A stretch of DNA of 58,736 bases from Jiangella aurantiaca (GTDB taxonomy: Bacteria > Actinomycetota > Actinomycetes > Jiangellales > Jiangellaceae). Where the stretch lies: the NCBI RefSeq assembly GCF_004349105.1, contig NZ_SMLB01000036.1, positions 1 through 58,736 on the forward strand, written 5' to 3'. A model generated the notes under the pieces. That model was given only the letters and a program-made list of their open reading frames with translations, was not told the DNA's origin and did not search any database. Below are positions 25,915-32,608 of the stretch, piece by piece. The translations under genes were made by a program, and so were the position numbers. The first letter of the stretch is position 1, and every line of letters starts with the position of its first letter.

Positions 25915-27159
25915 TCAGCCGCGAGGATCGGCGACGGTGCCGAGGAAGAGGATCGTCCCGGTCTCGCTGTCGGAGATCGTGAACGCGAACGGCCGATCCA
26001 CCCGGAACGGCCAGCCCGCCGAGACGTCCATCATCCCGCCGGTGACGGCGGCGGCCTCGGTGCCGGCCTCGTCGACACGGATGTAGGTCTTCTGCGCGAC
26101 GACGCTGAGAGACGGGTTCACCGGTGACATCGGGGTGAAGTCGCCGCCGCCGAACGCCCTGTCCATGCCGAGGGCGATGAGCGCGTCGTTGAGCTCCGCC
26201 TCCCACTCCAGCTCGAACCGCGGCAGCGCCAACTCGTCGATCTTCGTGGGCTCGAGCGCGGCGACGGCGGCGGCCCATTCCGTCGCGTCGAGCGACGCGA
26301 GCAGCTGCGGCAACCCGAAGCCGTCGTCGGGTAGCAGGATCTCCATGGCGTACCGCTCGTCCTCGCCGTAGGGGAGCCGCAGCATCTGGTAGCCGTCGCG
26401 CTGGGCGAGCGGCAGGTAGGTCGTGGGGAGATGCATGATCGGCACCGTCGACGTGGTGCCGTCGGTCAGCCGGAAGCCGCCGTCGCGGGTGTCGCCCGGG
26501 TCGAACGGGGTGGTCCATGCGCCGAGGAAGTAGACGGCGTTCGCCAGCACCAGCACGGCCCTCGGATCCGGGAGCCGGAGTTCCTCGGCGATGCCGTCGA
26601 TGCGGTCATCGGTCTGGTCCCGCACCCAGGCGTCGATCTCGTCGGCCGTCTCCTGCGCGCCGAGGTCGGCCTCGGCGACGGTGGCGCCGAAGGAGTCGCG
26701 CGTGAACGCGAGATAGTCGTCCTCGAACGGCACGCCCGGCTGGGCCCACAGCGCGTTGGCGGTGGAGAGGGTGACGTCGTCGGTGTCGGCCAGTTCGCGT
26801 AACAGGGCGCCGACGCGGACGTCGCGGGAGTCCTCGAGATGCAGCACGGCGGCCATCTCGTCGGCCGTCTGCCCGCCGGCTCCGGCCAGCACCATCGCCA
26901 GCAGCGCCGCCGCCGACACCGGCGACGTGACGGTGTTCTCCGTCCCGTCGGTCAGCTGACCGAGCAGCTCGAAGCCGAACTCGTTGACCGACGTCCCGAC
27001 GGCGTCTGCGTCGCCTGGCGCGACGTCGGTCACCAGCTCCATCCTGGCCGCGGCCGCTGCGCCGTCACCCGACGGGTTCTCGGGCGACGCGTTCGTTCCA
27101 CAGGCCGCGACCAGCAGCCCGCCGGCCAGGATGCCGGCGATCAGGCGGGTGTAGGACAT
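25915..27159 (-). CDS. Serpin lipoprotein 1
   Basis: This 414-residue serine protease inhibitor is predicted to be anchored outside the membrane by a lipobox (GGLLVAAC). A short Ser/Gly/Ala linker leads into a full-length serpin fold, with NTVTSPVSAAALLAMVLAGAGG, NALWAQ, NAVYFLGAWTTPF and RPFAFTISDS. The reactive-loop hinge DEAGTEAAAVTG (from residue 363) has the small residues needed for loop insertion, so inhibition is likely. Counting P17 from the hinge Glu places P1 at Ser within GGMMDVSAGWP. It is the last of three tandem paralogues, 24 bp after serpin 2. The target protease is unknown. Confidence 0.93.
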   Translation of the reverse strand: MSYTRLIAGILAGGLLVAACGTNASPENPSGDGAAAAARMELVTDVAPGDADAVGTSVNEFGFELLGQLTDGTENTVTSPVSAAALLAMVLAGAGGQTADEMAAVLHLEDSRDVRVGALLRELADTDDVTLSTANALWAQPGVPFEDDYLAFTRDSFGATVAEADLGAQETADEIDAWVRDQTDDRIDGIAEELRLPDPRAVLVLANAVYFLGAWTTPFDPGDTRDGGFRLTDGTTSTVPIMHLPTTYLPLAQRDGYQMLRLPYGEDERYAMEILLPDDGFGLPQLLASLDATEWAAAVAALEPTKIDELALPRFELEWEAELNDALIALGMDRAFGGGDFTPMSPVNPSLSVVAQKTYIRVDEAGTEAAAVTGGMMDVSAGWPFRVDRPFAFTISDSETGTILFLGTVADPRG

Positions 27160-27183
27160 GTCGGCCCCCTCGACGACAGTGGG

Positions 27184-28422
27184 TCAGCCGCGCGGATCGG
27201 TCACGGTGCCGAGGAACAGGATCGTGCCGGTCTGGCTGTCGGAGATGGTGAACGCGAACGGCCGATCCACCCGGAAGCTGTTGCCGCCGGCCGACTCCGC
27301 CATGACCCCGCCGGTGACGGCGGCCGCCTCGGTGCCGGCCTCGTCGACCCGGATGTAGGTCTTCTGCACGACGGTTGCCAGGAACGGGTTCTCCGGCGAC
27401 ATCGGCGTGAAGTCGCCGCCGCCGAACGCGCTGTCCATGCCGAGGCTGCGGAGCGGCTTGGTGAGCTCCGCCTTCCACTCCAGCTCGAATCGTGGCAGCG
27501 CCAGCTCCCTCAGGTGTTGCTCCTGCAGCTCGCCGACGGCGGCCGCCCACTCGGCGGCGTCGAGCGATGCGAGCAGCTGCGGCACTCCGGAGCCGTCGTC
27601 CGGGAGCAGGATCTCCATGGCGTACCGCTCGTCCTCACCGTACGGGAGCCGCAGCATGCGGTAGCCGTCGCGCTGGGCGACCGGGAGGTCGACCTCGGTG
27701 CGGTGCATGAGCGGGACGTCGGCCGTGCTGTCGTCGGCCAGCCGGAACGGCTCGTCCCTGGTCTCGTTGGGGTCGAACTGGGTGGTCCACGTGCCGAGGA
27801 AGTAGACCGCGTTCAGCAGCACCAGGACGGCGTCGCCGCTGGGCAGCCCAAGGTCCGCTGCGATGCCGTCGATGCGGTCCTCCGTCTGGTCCCGGACCCA
27901 GGCGTCGATCTCGTCGGCCGTCTCCTGCGACCCGAGATCGGCATTGTCGATCGTGGCGCCGAAGGAGTCGCGGGCGAAGGCCAGGTAGTTCTCCTCGAAC
28001 GGGTAGCCCTGCTGGGCCCACAGCGCGTTGGCGACGGACAGCGTGACGTCGTCGGTGTCGGCAAGCTCGCGCAGCAGCGCCCCGACCCGGACATCCCGCG
28101 AGTCGTCGAGGTGCAGGACGGTGGCCATCTCGTCCGCCGTCTGGCCGCCGGCCCCGGCGAGCACCATGGCCAGCAGCGCGGCCGCGGAGACCGGCGACGT
28201 GACGGTGTTCTGCGTCCCGTCGGTCAACTGGCCGAGCAGATCGAAGCCGAACTCGTTCACCGACGAGCCGACAGCGCCGGCGTCGGCCGGATCGAGGTCG
28301 GCGACCAGCTGCAAGGGCGCGGCGCTGCCAGCGGACCCCGAGCCGGGCGACTCGGCCGTTCCGCAGGCCGTGGCGATCAGCCCGCCGGCGACGATGCCGG
28401 CGATCAAGCGGGTGTACGACAT
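27184..28422 (-). CDS. Serpin lipoprotein 2
   Basis: This 412-residue paralogue of serpin 1 shares the same signal (MSYTRLIAGIVAGG, lipobox IATAC) and the same inhibitory hinge (DEAGTEAAAVTG, from about residue 360). The loop then diverges to GGVMAESAGGNS, with P1 again near Ser, before the shared FRVDRPFAFTISDS. The ATG at 28422 has TTGGGGGCAG upstream; a GTG four codons earlier is less likely. Signal peptide and body are closest to serpin 1, so these two come from the more recent duplication. It is 21 bp from serpin 3, so the three are co-transcribed. Confidence 0.93.
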   Translation of the reverse strand: MSYTRLIAGIVAGGLIATACGTAESPGSGSAGSAAPLQLVADLDPADAGAVGSSVNEFGFDLLGQLTDGTQNTVTSPVSAAALLAMVLAGAGGQTADEMATVLHLDDSRDVRVGALLRELADTDDVTLSVANALWAQQGYPFEENYLAFARDSFGATIDNADLGSQETADEIDAWVRDQTEDRIDGIAADLGLPSGDAVLVLLNAVYFLGTWTTQFDPNETRDEPFRLADDSTADVPLMHRTEVDLPVAQRDGYRMLRLPYGEDERYAMEILLPDDGSGVPQLLASLDAAEWAAAVGELQEQHLRELALPRFELEWKAELTKPLRSLGMDSAFGGGDFTPMSPENPFLATVVQKTYIRVDEAGTEAAAVTGGVMAESAGGNSFRVDRPFAFTISDSQTGTILFLGTVTDPRG

Positions 28423-28443
28423 GTCTGCCCCCAAGGGTGTGCC

Positions 28444-29739
28444 TCAGCCGCGCGGGTCGGTCACCGCCCCGAGGAAGACGATGGTGCCCGTCTGGCTGTC
28501 GGAGATGGTGAACGCGAACGGCCGGTCGACGCGGAAGCTCTCGCCGGTCACCGCCGTCGACCGCATGGCACCGCCGGTGACCGCCGCGGCCTCGGTGCCG
28601 GCCTCGTCGACGCGGATGTAGGTCTTCTGCACGACGCTGTCGAGCACCGGGTTCGACGGCGACATCGGCCGGAAGTCGCCGCCCGCGAACGCCGTGCCCA
28701 TGCCGAGCGCCGTCAGGGCGTCGGTCAGCTCGCCCTTCCACTCCAGTTCGAACTTCGGGACGGCGACGGTGCTCTGCTCGGTGGGGGTGAGGGCGGCGAC
28801 CGCGGCAGCCCACTCGGTCGCGTCGAGCGTCGACAGCAGGTGCGGCAGGCTCGAGTCGGTGTCGGGAAGCATGATCTCCATGCCGTACCGGCCGTCGTCG
28901 CCGTAGGGGAGCCGCAGCATCCGGTATCCGTCGCGCTGCGTCACCGGGAACGTCTGGTCGCGCAGGTGCATGAGTGGCACGTCGGCGGTGCCGCCGTCGG
29001 CCAAGGTGAACGGCTCGTCGCGGGTGTCGGCGGGGTCGAACTGGGTGGTCCAGGTACCGAGGAAGTAGACGGCGTTGAGCAGGACCAGGCCGGCTTCGGG
29101 GTCGGGCAGGCCGAGGTCGGTGGCGATGCCGTCGATGCGGTCCTCGGTGTGCTCGCGGACCCACGCGTCGATCGCGTCGGCGGACTCGGGCGACCCGAGA
29201 TCGGCCTTCTCGGCGGTCGCCCCGAAGGTGTCGCGCACGAAGGTGAGGTAGTCGCCCTCGATCTCGAAGCCCTCGTCCGCCCACAGCGCGTTGGCCGGCG
29301 CGAGCGTGACGTCGTCGGTGTCGGCGAGCTGTCGCAGCAATGCCCCGACCCGCACGTCGCGGGCGTCCTCCAGGTGCAGGGTTCCGGCCATCGCCGCGGC
29401 GGTGTCTCCGCCGGCGCCGGCCAGCACCATGGCCAGCAGGGCCGCGGCCGAGACCGGCGAGGTCACGGTGTTCTCGTCGCCGGCGGCGAGCCGGCCGAGC
29501 AGGTCGAAGCCGAACTGGTTGACGGATGCGCCAACGGTGCCGGCGTCGGCCGGCGCGAGGTCGGCGACGACGTCGATGCGCGGCGCCGGCCCCGGTTCGG
29601 CGGTCGGCGACGTGGCGGCCTCGCCCGCGCCCGAGCCCGGCGCGCCGCTGCCGTCGTCCTCACCGGCCGGGCCGGAGCCGCAGCCGGCGACCAGTAATGC
29701 ACCGGCGAGCACCGCCGTGAGCACGCGGGGCAGGGACAT
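28444..29739 (-). CDS. Serpin lipoprotein 3
   Basis: This 431-residue protein is the first transcribed and most divergent of the three serpins. It has lipobox LLVAGC, a longer Gly/Ser/Pro/Glu linker (about residues 20-58) and the serpin core. The hinge is identical (DEAGTEAAAVTG), but the reactive loop reads GGAMRSTAVTGES, placing a basic residue at P3 and Thr near P1. GGAGGTG precedes the ATG at 29739. Upstream lies the 105-bp repeat element and then the second cytochrome b gene, so a promoter within 29740-29786 or the repeat itself may drive the serpin group. Confidence 0.93.
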   Translation of the reverse strand: MSLPRVLTAVLAGALLVAGCGSGPAGEDDGSGAPGSGAGEAATSPTAEPGPAPRIDVVADLAPADAGTVGASVNQFGFDLLGRLAAGDENTVTSPVSAAALLAMVLAGAGGDTAAAMAGTLHLEDARDVRVGALLRQLADTDDVTLAPANALWADEGFEIEGDYLTFVRDTFGATAEKADLGSPESADAIDAWVREHTEDRIDGIATDLGLPDPEAGLVLLNAVYFLGTWTTQFDPADTRDEPFTLADGGTADVPLMHLRDQTFPVTQRDGYRMLRLPYGDDGRYGMEIMLPDTDSSLPHLLSTLDATEWAAAVAALTPTEQSTVAVPKFELEWKGELTDALTALGMGTAFAGGDFRPMSPSNPVLDSVVQKTYIRVDEAGTEAAAVTGGAMRSTAVTGESFRVDRPFAFTISDSQTGTIVFLGAVTDPRG

Positions 29740-29786
29740 GGACGCACCTCCGGGACGACAGTCCAGCTCAGCCTTCTTGAGAACTC

Positions 29787-29891
29787 GGGGTCATGCAACG
29801 ACCTCTCACGCTCTCCAGCCGACTTACGCACTGGACCGAGGACTCAGGGGGACCTTCGGGCCCCCATCACCCGTCGGTGTTGCAGAACCCC
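29787..29891. repeat. Copy A of a ~104-bp element with inverted-repeat ends
   Basis: Ends GGGGTCATGCAAC and GTTGCAGAACCCC are inverted repeats. The interior shares CTGGACCGAGGACTC, GGGGGACCTTCGG and CCCGTCGGT with copy B at 32028-32130, in the same orientation. The core GGGGGACCTTCGGGCCCCC is itself an imperfect palindrome reminiscent of dormancy-regulator (DosR-like) sites. The element abuts the stop codon of the cytochrome b paralogue and lies 48 bp upstream of serpin 3. Confidence 0.85.
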
Positions 29892-31448
29892 TCATTGCTC
29901 CTTTACTTGGACGCCGCCGGAGACGGGTCGGTTGCCGGGGAGATCGGCGAAGTAGAAATGAGACGCCAGAGCGCGCCGCCGGTCGGCGCGGTAGTGCGGG
30001 TTCGGGATGCCCTGCGCGTCGGCCGGTGCGCCGGCCCCGGCGGGCACCAGCGCCGCGCGCGGCGCCCGCCGCTCCGCCTCCTGTGGAGTGAGCGGCCGGT
30101 GCAGCTCGCTGAACCCGCCCTCGGGACTGACGACGACGATCCCGGTCGCGTGCCCGTGGCGCAGCTCCTCCAGGTCGCGCATCCGCAGGCCCAGGCAGAT
30201 CCGCTTCGTCGCCCAGAACACCAGCGGCGGTGCGACGACGACGGCGGCCTGCAGGAACCGGACCAGCGGCTCGAGCGGGACGTGCAGCAGCGTGGCGACG
30301 ACGTCGGTGGCGCCGGCGATCCACAGCACCAGGTAGAACGCGACGAACGCGGCCACCAGGGCGGTGCGGACCGGCATGTCCCGGGGCCGGTCGAGGACGT
30401 CAGGGTCGCGGCGGTCGCCAGTGGCCCACTGCTCGAACCACGGGTACAGCGCGAGTGACGCCAGGAGCACGCCGGGCAGCACCATGACAGGGACGACGAC
30501 GCTCAGCGTCAGCGTGTAGCCGAACACGTCGAGCTCCCACGGTGGCATCAACCGCACGGCGCCGTCGAGGAACCCGAGGTACCACGGCGGCCGGCTGCCG
30601 GCCGGCGCCTGCGCTGCGTCGAACGGCCCCCACAGCCAGACCGGGTTGACCTGGACGGCCGCCGCCATCGCGACGATAGCGCCCGAGATCAGCAGCGCCA
30701 GTCCGCCCATCCGCGCGGCGTACCGCGGGAGCGGATCGCCGGCCGGCTCCTCCTCCGCCTGCCACCGCCGGTAGGCGAGCACCAGCCAGACGGCGGCCAG
30801 GCCGATGATCAGCGCCGGCAGTATCCACACGTGCAACGTGGTCAGCCGGCCGATGATCTGGTCGCCCGGGAACTCGTCGCCGAACACCAGCCACGACAGC
30901 CAGGTCCCGATCACCGGCGTGGCCAGCAGGTAGCCCTCGGTGACCCGCAGCCCGGTCCCGGACTGCATGTCGTCGGGCAGCGAGTGGCCGAGGTACGCCT
31001 CGGCGATGCCCAGCACCAGCAGCGCCAGCAGGATCAGCCAGCCGATCCGCCGGTACCCGCGGAACGCGCCGGCGAGGAACACCCGCAGCAGGTGCGCCGA
31101 CAGCGCGGCGATGAACACCAGCGACGCCCAGTGGTGGACCTGGCGGACGAGCAGCCCGCCCGGCACCTCCAGCGAGATGCGCACCGTCGACGCGTAGGCC
31201 TCGGACATCGTCACGCCGCGCAGGGGGCCGTAGTCGCCGGCGTACACGACTTGCCGCATGGACGGCTCGAACCAGAACGCCAGCAGTACGCCGGACACCA
31301 GCACCAGCAGGAAGCTGATGATCGCCAGCGGGGCGAACAGGTCGGTCCACCGCTGCGGCACCGGCAGCCGGCGCCGGGTCATCGGGCCGTGCCGGTCGGC
31401 CAGGCCGACCACCGCGGTGACCATCGGGTGTTTCGTCGGGTCGGGCAT
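29892..31448 (-). CDS. Second, degenerate cytochrome b (QcrB paralogue)
   Basis: This 518-residue paralogue of qcrB is alignable over its full length, including the C-terminal extension (GIPNPHYRADRRRALASHFYF). Heme ligands H105 and H119 in helix B and H206 in helix D are kept, but the fourth ligand is Trp (W221, in GLAAVWLVLAY). The quinol-site motif reads PPWY (287-290) instead of PDWY. Loss of a heme bH ligand and of the motif acid argues against normal quinol oxidation. No Rieske or cytochrome c gene accompanies it. The ATG at 31448 has GAGGAG upstream. Its role may be an alternative redox or assembly function; unknown. Confidence 0.9.
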   Translation of the reverse strand: MPDPTKHPMVTAVVGLADRHGPMTRRRLPVPQRWTDLFAPLAIISFLLVLVSGVLLAFWFEPSMRQVVYAGDYGPLRGVTMSEAYASTVRISLEVPGGLLVRQVHHWASLVFIAALSAHLLRVFLAGAFRGYRRIGWLILLALLVLGIAEAYLGHSLPDDMQSGTGLRVTEGYLLATPVIGTWLSWLVFGDEFPGDQIIGRLTTLHVWILPALIIGLAAVWLVLAYRRWQAEEEPAGDPLPRYAARMGGLALLISGAIVAMAAAVQVNPVWLWGPFDAAQAPAGSRPPWYLGFLDGAVRLMPPWELDVFGYTLTLSVVVPVMVLPGVLLASLALYPWFEQWATGDRRDPDVLDRPRDMPVRTALVAAFVAFYLVLWIAGATDVVATLLHVPLEPLVRFLQAAVVVAPPLVFWATKRICLGLRMRDLEELRHGHATGIVVVSPEGGFSELHRPLTPQEAERRAPRAALVPAGAGAPADAQGIPNPHYRADRRRALASHFYFADLPGNRPVSGGVQVKEQ

Positions 31449-31597
31449 GCCGCACTCCTCGCGATTCGCTCCTACCACTAGGACTTGTGCGGGGCCGGGA
31501 TTGTGACATGACGTCGATCACGTCCGTAGTCTGCGGTGATGCCGCCGACCGCGAGGTTCCAGGATGCGGCGAGCCCCTCGACGGAATGGGAGACCGC

Positions 31598-31981
31598 ATG
31601 GCGTCGGCGATCGATCTCATGGACGACACGTTCGTGGTGGCTGATCGGGCCGAGCTGGCGGCGTACGTCCGCGACCCGGCGGTCTGGCGGGAGTGGTGGC
31701 CGCAACTGACCCTCGCCGTCCGCCAGGACCGCGGCCTGGAGGGCATGCGCTGGACCGTCACCGGTGAGCTGACCGGCAGCACGGAGCTGTGGCTGGAGCG
31801 GTGGGGCGACGGCGTCCTCGTCCACTGGTTCCTGCGCGCCGACCCGGCGTCGCCACGGGCCCGGCCGGACCGGCTGGCCCGCCGGTACACCGTCGCGTTC
31901 AAGGCGCGCATCCAGGAGCTGAAGGACCGCCTAGAGCAGGGACGACCGGCCGGCGTGCCGCGCCTGCCGCCGGCTCGATAG
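31598..31981 (+). CDS. SRPBCC family protein beside the cytochrome b paralogue
   Basis: This 127-residue protein has a polyketide cyclase-like fold: SAIDLMDDTFVVADRAEL, DPAVWREWWPQLTL, GSTELWLERWGDGVLVHWFLR and a closing helix. It belongs to a family often seen in Actinobacteria, with no known ligand. GGGAG precedes the ATG at 31598; upstream in-frame starts lack support. It is divergent from the cytochrome b paralogue (about 150 bp gap containing GACGT-CGATC-ACGTC). Both genes together are bracketed by the two ~104-bp repeats. Confidence 0.8.
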   Translation: MASAIDLMDDTFVVADRAELAAYVRDPAVWREWWPQLTLAVRQDRGLEGMRWTVTGELTGSTELWLERWGDGVLVHWFLRADPASPRARPDRLARRYTVAFKARIQELKDRLEQGRPAGVPRLPPAR

Positions 31982-32027
31982 TCTGCGATCTCCGCCGGTG
32001 CGGAGGGCCGCAAGCCACTACAGAAGT

Positions 32028-32130
32028 CGGGTTATGCAATGATCACGAACTCTCTCCTGCCACTTTCCGGCCTGGACCGAGGACTCTGGGGGACCTTCGG
32101 CCCCCCGTCGCCCGTCGGTATTGCATAACC
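32028..32130. repeat. Copy B of the ~104-bp element
   Basis: The ends GGGTTATGCAAT and ATTGCATAACCC are perfect 12-bp inverted repeats. Relative to copy A (29787-29891), paired changes occur at the ends (GCAAT/ATTGC here, GCAAC/GTTGC there), which keeps complementarity. The core GGGGGACCTTCGG followed by CCCCCC is shared. It lies 28 bp before the next SRPBCC gene and 46 bp after the previous one. Confidence 0.85.
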
Positions 32131-32158
32131 CTCCAAGGGCAGATGGGACACTTCACAC

Positions 32159-32608
32159 ATGGCTGCGCAGACCACGTCGAGCATCGTCGTCGCGGCGACG
32201 CCTGACCGCATCATGGCCGTCATCGCCGACCTCGAGGCGTACCCGGAGTGGACCGCCTCGGTCCGCGAGGTCGAGGTGCTGACGGTCTACGAGGACAGCG
32301 GGCGGCCGGGCGAGGCGAAGTTCGTCCTCGACGCCGGGCCGATCAAGGACCGCTACACGCTCTCCTACGAGTGGGACGGCGACGACGAGGTCCGGTGGAG
32401 CCTGGTCGAGGGCGGGCTGATCAAGGAGCTCGACGGCTCCTACGCGCTGGCTGCGGTCGACGACTCGAGCACCGAGGTGACGTACCAGCTGACGGTCGAC
32501 GTCGCGATCCCGATGCTCGGGCTGATGAAACGCAAGGCGGAGAAGGTCATCATCGACACGGCTCTGAAAGAGCTGAAGAAGCGCGTCGAGGACGGAGTGG
32601 ACGAGTGA
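32159..32608 (+). CDS. SRPBCC family protein (CoxG/TB16.3-like)
   Basis: This 149-residue START-like protein has the N-terminal SSIVVAATPDRIMAVIADLEAYPEWTASV motif, a curved sheet and a long C-terminal amphipathic helix (RKAEKVIIDTALKELKKRV). The order SRPBCC then PlsC recalls the mycobacterial TB16.3 locus. The ligand is unknown. Its stop overlaps the glucokinase GTG by 4 bp (GTGA), so translation is coupled. Copy B of the repeat lies directly upstream and may hold its promoter. Confidence 0.88.
   Translation: MAAQTTSSIVVAATPDRIMAVIADLEAYPEWTASVREVEVLTVYEDSGRPGEAKFVLDAGPIKDRYTLSYEWDGDDEVRWSLVEGGLIKELDGSYALAAVDDSSTEVTYQLTVDVAIPMLGLMKRKAEKVIIDTALKELKKRVEDGVDE

Follow-up and report, generated by a model that had tools for sequence, protein, structure and literature searches.

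The window analysed here, a stretch of 58,736 nucleotides from Jiangella aurantiaca (contig NZ_SMLB01000036.1), carries on its minus strand a serpin gene (28444-29739; Pfam Serpin, E = 2.2e-87) and a cytochrome b family gene (29892-31448), the latter delimited by its Pfam match, its open reading frame (ORF) and an alignment of the junction at its end. On the plus strand are a small called ORF (31586-31981), for which a Pfam search returned nothing at E ≤ 0.001, and a Polyketide_cyc/SRPBCC gene (32159-32608; Pfam Polyketide_cyc, E = 7.9e-14). Three tandem serpin genes occupy positions 25915-29739 of the minus strand, with stretches that are 80-86% identical between copies.

Two direct copies of a 103 bp sequence, here called W1 (29788-29890) and W2 (32029-32131), reside among these genes and align without gaps at 81% identity, as expected from the preliminary description of two repeats in the same orientation. 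The compensating change reported for their inverted ends is also present, with GCAAC facing GTTGC in W1 and GCAAT facing ATTGC in W2, and both copies contain the core GGGGGACCTTCGG. A repeat of about 104 bp had been proposed, which fits the shared sequence but falls short of the inserted units; these extend from about 29764 to 29895 and from about 31998 to 32137, with edges that were judged by eye against empty orthologous sites and that may be off by a few bases. Likewise, the cytochrome b gene does lie between the copies, but the SRPBCC gene that was thought to accompany it is outside W2, and the second enclosed gene is the small ORF lacking a Pfam match.

Both insertions are on the minus strand and belong to subfamily A, which is the least specialised type of the element family described below. 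W1 comprises a short 5′ lead, a 104-nt structured core (29787-29891) formed by the end helix P1, P2 (with a tandem-GA internal loop and an apical hairpin), P3 and P4, and a 3′ tail of about 24 nt. Its RNA strand runs toward the serpin gene, in sense and about 43 nt upstream of the called serpin start, and its first bases supply the TGA stop codon of the cytochrome b gene at the insertion junction. W2 consists of a structured core (32028-32130) and a tail of about 31 nt. It is located just upstream of the SRPBCC gene, to which it is antisense and from which its RNA strand diverges, being directed toward the small gene's 3′ end; W2 is the leader of no gene, and is probably a passenger.

Orthologous loci from six named Jiangella (L009-L014) reveal the history of the two copies. 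None of the six gives a hit to the covariance model. The W2 site is empty in all of them, with other extra sequence nearby in L013, and the W1 site is empty in the five aligned loci L009-L012 and L014; at the W1 site of L013 the flanks match and enclose about 165 bases that hold no element. Because all six carry the intervening genes with neither element, W1 and W2 must be separate insertions. Judged against the empty sites, the inserted unit is about 135-140 bp for W1 and W2; elements of the family measure about 120-140 bp.

A search of the organism's own genome with the W1 sequence identified 15 places at E ≤ 0.004, W1 and W2 included, far more than chance would give, and a covariance model built from those 15 copies identified 55 at E ≤ 0.1 among 150 scored candidates. 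This model matches W1 at 29783-29895 (minus strand, 105.5 bits) and W2 at 32025-32135 (minus strand, 116.1 bits). For later analyses 52 of the 55 were used, three of the four weakest being left out. When 12 Jiangella genomes (G000-G011) were searched, the copy numbers were 51, 20, 46, 9, 0, 6, 10, 1, at least 61, 0, 1 and 30, in which the value of 61 is a lower bound because the best 63 candidates were scored per genome. Copies are present in 13 of the 60 genomes searched, own genome included; outside the genus they occur in 3 of 48 other genomes, all from the same family. A wider search gave matches in 13 of 393 genomes of the class (again including the own genome), all within the same family, although it considered the best nine candidates per genome under strict filters, such that weak or diverged copies elsewhere could escape it. 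The search for further copies that had been suggested at the outset therefore yielded about 55 places in the genome and others across Jiangella, and these many copies, together with the empty orthologous sites, support the proposal of a non-autonomous mobile element.

Directly downstream of a D copy in L105, at about 1700-1760, the sequence GTGTGGAGGG..CCGTGCATAC follows a TAGCGT box; it is probably a shortened C copy missed by the covariance model, and the copy number may be an underestimate for this reason. Elements also occur as head-to-tail tandem pairs with a period of about 124 bp (L165 and L171, G008; L186, G003; L087, G000). Such tandem junctions suggest the exact unit, which for B would be CCCAGGGAGG ... 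GATGTC. In three genomes (L047, L048 and L058, from G006, G003 and G011, respectively) the palindrome ATTGGCTGRRGCCAATCC is found just upstream of an A-type copy that they share.

The element begins with GGAGG and the first strand of P1 (10-12 bp), continues with P2, P3 and P4, and closes with the second strand of P1, CGAC and a tail of 10-30 nt. Within P2, a stem leads through a tandem G-A internal loop to an apical hairpin, CC-GRA-GG, which contains a G-U pair. This structure was tested on a sequence-only MAFFT alignment of the 15 copies, in which 89.8% of cells are paired and 13 of 37 pairs exhibit two-sided changes. The covariation score is 0.217, compared with 0.117 ± 0.011 for shuffled alignments (0 of 500 reach it) and at most 0.069 with slid partners, a comparison that favours the proposed structure over its slid versions since that alignment is also the source of the structure. 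Most of the covariation resides in P1, where 9 of 12 pairs show two-sided changes. P2 pairs well but varies less, and support for P3 and P4 (80% and 73% of cells paired, respectively) is weak. A covariance model was built, as had been recommended, and the covariation in the alignment, beyond that of shuffles, supports the suggestion that the repeat encodes a structured RNA.

Pairing in P1 also exceeds that of shuffled partners within each subfamily, with z values of 12.1 for A, 6.1 for B, 9.6 for C, 4.5 for D and 4.2 for E. Among the non-Watson-Crick cells of P1 there are 61 G-U, 11 A-C and 49 otherwise mismatched combinations, counted at 10-12 in-register positions, depending on the subfamily, that were trimmed after the register had been inspected. 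The excess of G-U over A-C indicates that the folded strand is the minus strand of the window. Copies common to two species at one gene provide 18 pairs, not mutually independent, whose differing cells comprise 11 two-sided compensating changes, 11 one-sided changes that keep pairing, 21 in which pairing is lost in one partner and 2 unpaired in both. Two pairs that fall out of register in the fixed mapping (L173/L098 and L182/L102) contribute 13 of the 21 losses, and without them the counts are 10 two-sided, 10 one-sided and 8 lost.

We analysed 139 distinct copies from the own and related genomes (143 hits less four duplicates) and divided them into subfamilies A (45 copies), C (39), B (22), D (15), E (8) and others (10), using a cut-off of 0.28 that was picked after viewing the sequences, since 0.36 and 0.30 lumped subfamilies. 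Gene positions were called with a simple home-made codon-usage script trained on ten ORFs of the window. Subfamily A precedes a gene in sense at variable distance in 32 of 45 copies and faces a gene on the opposite strand in the other 13. A leader-peptide ORF in the A core, with its ATG in P1, was considered and rejected, as this ATG (examined by eye) is lost when P1 changes.

Members of subfamily C all have their next called gene in sense (39 of 39 copies), 8-26 nt away in 26 cases, and they lie between a -10-like box and the start codon. The box, TANNNT, occurs 3-12 nt before the element in 28 of 39 C copies, compared with 1 of 45 A copies, none of the 22 B or 15 D copies and 3 of 887 control windows, which were taken 60-560 nt upstream in the same loci rather than at gene starts, a weak point of the statistic. 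In loci from low-copy genomes, some of them chosen as C orthologues, TANNNT is present 5-8 nt upstream of 25 of 110 called gene starts. The native genes at the empty C sites L091, L092, L097 and L103 have this box 6-7 nt before the start codon, and therefore all four look leaderless. The tail of the C element, inspected by eye, is purine-rich and resembles a Shine-Dalgarno sequence. One C copy (L076, G000:C30:40851-40961) is found within the called frame of a solute-binding protein, near its 5′ end.

Subfamily B is located at operon junctions, with 20 of 22 copies following a gene on the same strand. The upstream frame continues into the element in 11 of 14 copies checked, and ends at the TGA within GCATGAGCC or ACTGATG. 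The element then presents a Shine-Dalgarno-like stretch and, in the 3′ strand of P1, a start codon in 21 of 22 copies (ATG in 18, GTG in 3; the remaining copy has ACG), mostly followed by codons for S-R-P-T-D-V or a close variant, contributing about seven codons in the reading frame of the gene that follows. In 21 of 22 copies this frame stays open into that gene, the exception being the first copy of a tandem pair, and 20 of 22 have both the P1 start codon and the open frame. A further in-frame start codon is available at codon 7 to 9 in 17 of 22, and with this later start at hand there would be no need to keep the frame if the upstream start were not used. L166 and L176 offer no in-frame start besides the codon of the element over 26 codons, and the following in-frame starts of L088 fall inside the nucleotide-binding motif. 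When the leaders of 21 of the 22 copies were folded, the predicted mean pairing probability of the start codon was 0.97. Speaking against use of this codon, the public predicted protein (P0001) for the one B gene that was looked up, at L084, starts at the native ATG and not at that of the element.

Subfamily D faces a gene on the opposite strand in 9 of 15 copies, and the stop codon of that gene is 9-13 nt away in 5 of the 15. Three D copies of G000 (L118, L117 and L116) are bordered by CTAG at either junction, a possible sign that CTAG at stop codons serves as a target.

Empty sites are not confined to W1 and W2. BLAST coordinates from four low-copy genomes indicate that the B sites L084 and L090 and the C sites L091, L092, L097 and L103 are empty in all four, and that the B site L096 is empty in three and contains other DNA in the fourth. 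The D site L114 is empty in the single genome used for comparison, and six A sites (L055, L065, L073, L077, L078 and L080) and three D sites (L105, L106 and L109) are empty in the one or two genomes against which each was compared. At L077 and L091 the insertion is clean, with no duplication. Elsewhere the flanks overlap by 1-2 bases (L080), 4 bases (L073) or 6 bases (L065, possibly the GGAGGG of the element itself), and at L105 7 bp appear to be duplicated. Across the sites examined the overlaps (0, 1-2, 4, 6 and 7 bases) reveal no constant length of target-site duplication, and part of them may be sequence of the element.

Several candidate means of mobilisation were evaluated and rejected. 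RAYT/REPIN mobilisation is contradicted by the result that the Y1 transposase (PF01797) was found in none of the 12 Jiangella genomes, in a search that was positive in 5 of 14 controls. Copying by a group II intron or other reverse transcriptase was discarded, as RVT_1 (PF00078) is present among the 12 in G006 only. IS110 elements with bridge RNA were set aside: Transposase_20 is found in 9 of the 12 and is absent from G002 with its 46 copies. None of the three families (Y1, RVT_1 and IS110) tracks copy number. A PADLOC search for defence systems gave no match in eight neighbouring proteins, and no plasmid or phage carrier matched W2.

We consider it probable, from comparative sequence evidence, that W1 and W2 are independent insertions of a mobile structured RNA of Jiangella, parts of which have become 5′ leaders or modules for starting translation. 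For the family as a whole, the comparisons establish mobility, the fold, its strand, the niche at gene boundaries and the in-frame start codon, and they suggest that the RNA of the element acts in cis on translation. The elements would move as DNA or single-stranded DNA by means of some enzyme, and use of the transcribed element as a 5′ leader may be why many were retained. A C element would constitute the whole 5′ leader and bring a ribosome-binding site, converting a leaderless gene into a leadered one. In subfamily B, the end helix would hide the start codon, which, lying inside P1, should be closed until a ribosome arrives from upstream; ribosomes finishing the upstream gene would then open the helix, and the two genes would be coupled. 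Exact placement at start codons could arise because the mobilising step is drawn there, or because only insertions that kept or improved expression survived. We lean towards selection with retained function, since the conservation of both the frame and the start codon appears to need it.

A stronger form of this reading is possible, and we advance it tentatively: the family may represent a new kind of mobile element, in which a structured RNA module is placed at translation starts and brings its own ribosome-binding site. In leaderless genes its site would be the interval from the -10 box to the start codon, in operons it would be an overlapping stop/start junction, and one subfamily would also bring its own start codon. 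Transposition would then rewire initiation or coupling without breaking the gene.

The most serious alternative, which we judge unlikely, is a selfish hairpin element of the MITE or REPIN kind, whose fold is the single-stranded-DNA signal for an enzyme and whose positions are what remains after harmful insertions have been purged. The empty sites and the variation from 0 to at least 61 copies within one genus are what such an element would produce, the G-U strand preference also fits single-stranded DNA, both window copies resemble passengers, and no function is common to the neighbouring genes that were examined. However, if purifying selection were the whole cause, many B and C copies should still be found in ordinary spacers. 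The arrangement of C (next gene in sense in 39 of 39, -10-like box in 28 of 39) and the open frame of B (21 of 22) argue against it, as does the lack of a Y1 transposase in 12 of 12 Jiangella genomes.

A class of ligand-sensing riboswitch, through which one regulator controls many genes, would account for the conserved multi-helix fold and for the 5′ leader position of B and C, yet we regard it as highly improbable. Copies of the element (W1, W2 and 18 loci of several subfamilies) have no Rfam match above the gathering score, copy number ranges from 0 to at least 61 among genomes of a single genus, and D copies reside near the 3′ ends of genes. Furthermore, no common function or regulon is visible among the downstream genes examined. 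The genes next to elements encode serpin, DUF3027, histidine kinase, FtsX, solute-binding protein, FAD oxidoreductase, HupE, HxlR, tRNA-editing, LigD polymerase, lysine-decarboxylase-like, beta-lactamase fold, diacylglycerol kinase, NIF3, GFO/IDH and ADH proteins, as well as ABC-2 membrane, dTDP-sugar epimerase, IucA/IucC, M20 peptidase, Pyr_redox, again FtsX, ornithine monooxygenase, HAD hydrolase, RecQ-like helicase and RibD_C proteins. Genes so unrelated make a metabolite riboswitch regulon unlikely.

The core GGGGGACCTTCGG with its C-run does look like a DosR/DevR hypoxia box, as had been remarked, but the idea that such boxes lie within duplicated promoters has very little probability left: the core forms the 5′ arm of a hairpin, which in other subfamilies differs together with its partner and stays paired, and no hypoxia gene set or other shared function is apparent among the neighbours examined. 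A DosR-type regulatory box is not supported, since the core behaves as a hairpin arm and the gene content does not fit. Finally, it is scarcely credible that two direct copies 2.2 kb apart bound an excisable two-gene cassette, as the intervening genes are present, without either repeat, in six named relatives, and a genome with a single copy and without the genes was not seen among the relatives compared.

The mobile structured RNA of Jiangella can be compared with several known systems; among the matches listed, no description of the family was found in the open literature. Its members work in part like MITEs and REPINs. REPINs and REPs with RAYT are likewise described as short, palindromic, dispersed repeats that form hairpins, are non-autonomous and are mostly intergenic (PMC3116915, PMC2817692, PMC3733652). 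Those accounts give them a conserved terminal tetranucleotide; Jiangella elements have GGAG at one end and CGAC at the other, the latter reading GTCG on the opposite strand, or CGTC on the opposite strand in D. CGTC repeats are reported to have stems of 8-9 bp, to occur in five phyla, Actinobacteria not among them, and to have no dedicated transposase (PMC3733652). REPINs and REPs, as portrayed there, have RAYT, whereas a Y1/RAYT gene is present in 0 of the 12 Jiangella genomes. The branched four-helix fold also differs from the one or two simple hairpins depicted for REPINs and REPs, and, unlike those repeats as the same accounts present them, the Jiangella subfamilies are niche-specific and carry a start codon and a Shine-Dalgarno-like stretch.

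Examples of MITEs include the RUP, BOX, Correia and QMITE elements. According to a review, MITEs are similarly about 100-150 bp long, with inverted ends, many copies, structured transcripts and polymorphism of presence and absence (PMC10969869). Measured against that description, Jiangella elements have no target-site duplication of fixed length, are GC-rich, and have ends that vary in sequence yet stay paired. The nearest case of small repeats in frame is that of the Rickettsia palindromic elements, which the same review describes as small mobile palindromes that enter coding frames in frame and add a peptide (PMC10969869). As characterised there, they reside inside genes, whereas Jiangella B elements lie between genes and apparently supply a start codon and the first residues.

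Small mobile repeats of bacteria are usually viewed as intergenic passengers. Here, one family in one genus has subfamilies tied to leaderless starts, to operon junctions and, less clearly, to 3′ ends, and two of these (B and C) carry apparent translation signals. If this interpretation is true, transposition would turn leaderless genes into leadered ones and install start codons, and would offer a route by which translational control could spread through a genome. The range from 0 to at least 61 copies across one genus makes the idea directly testable.
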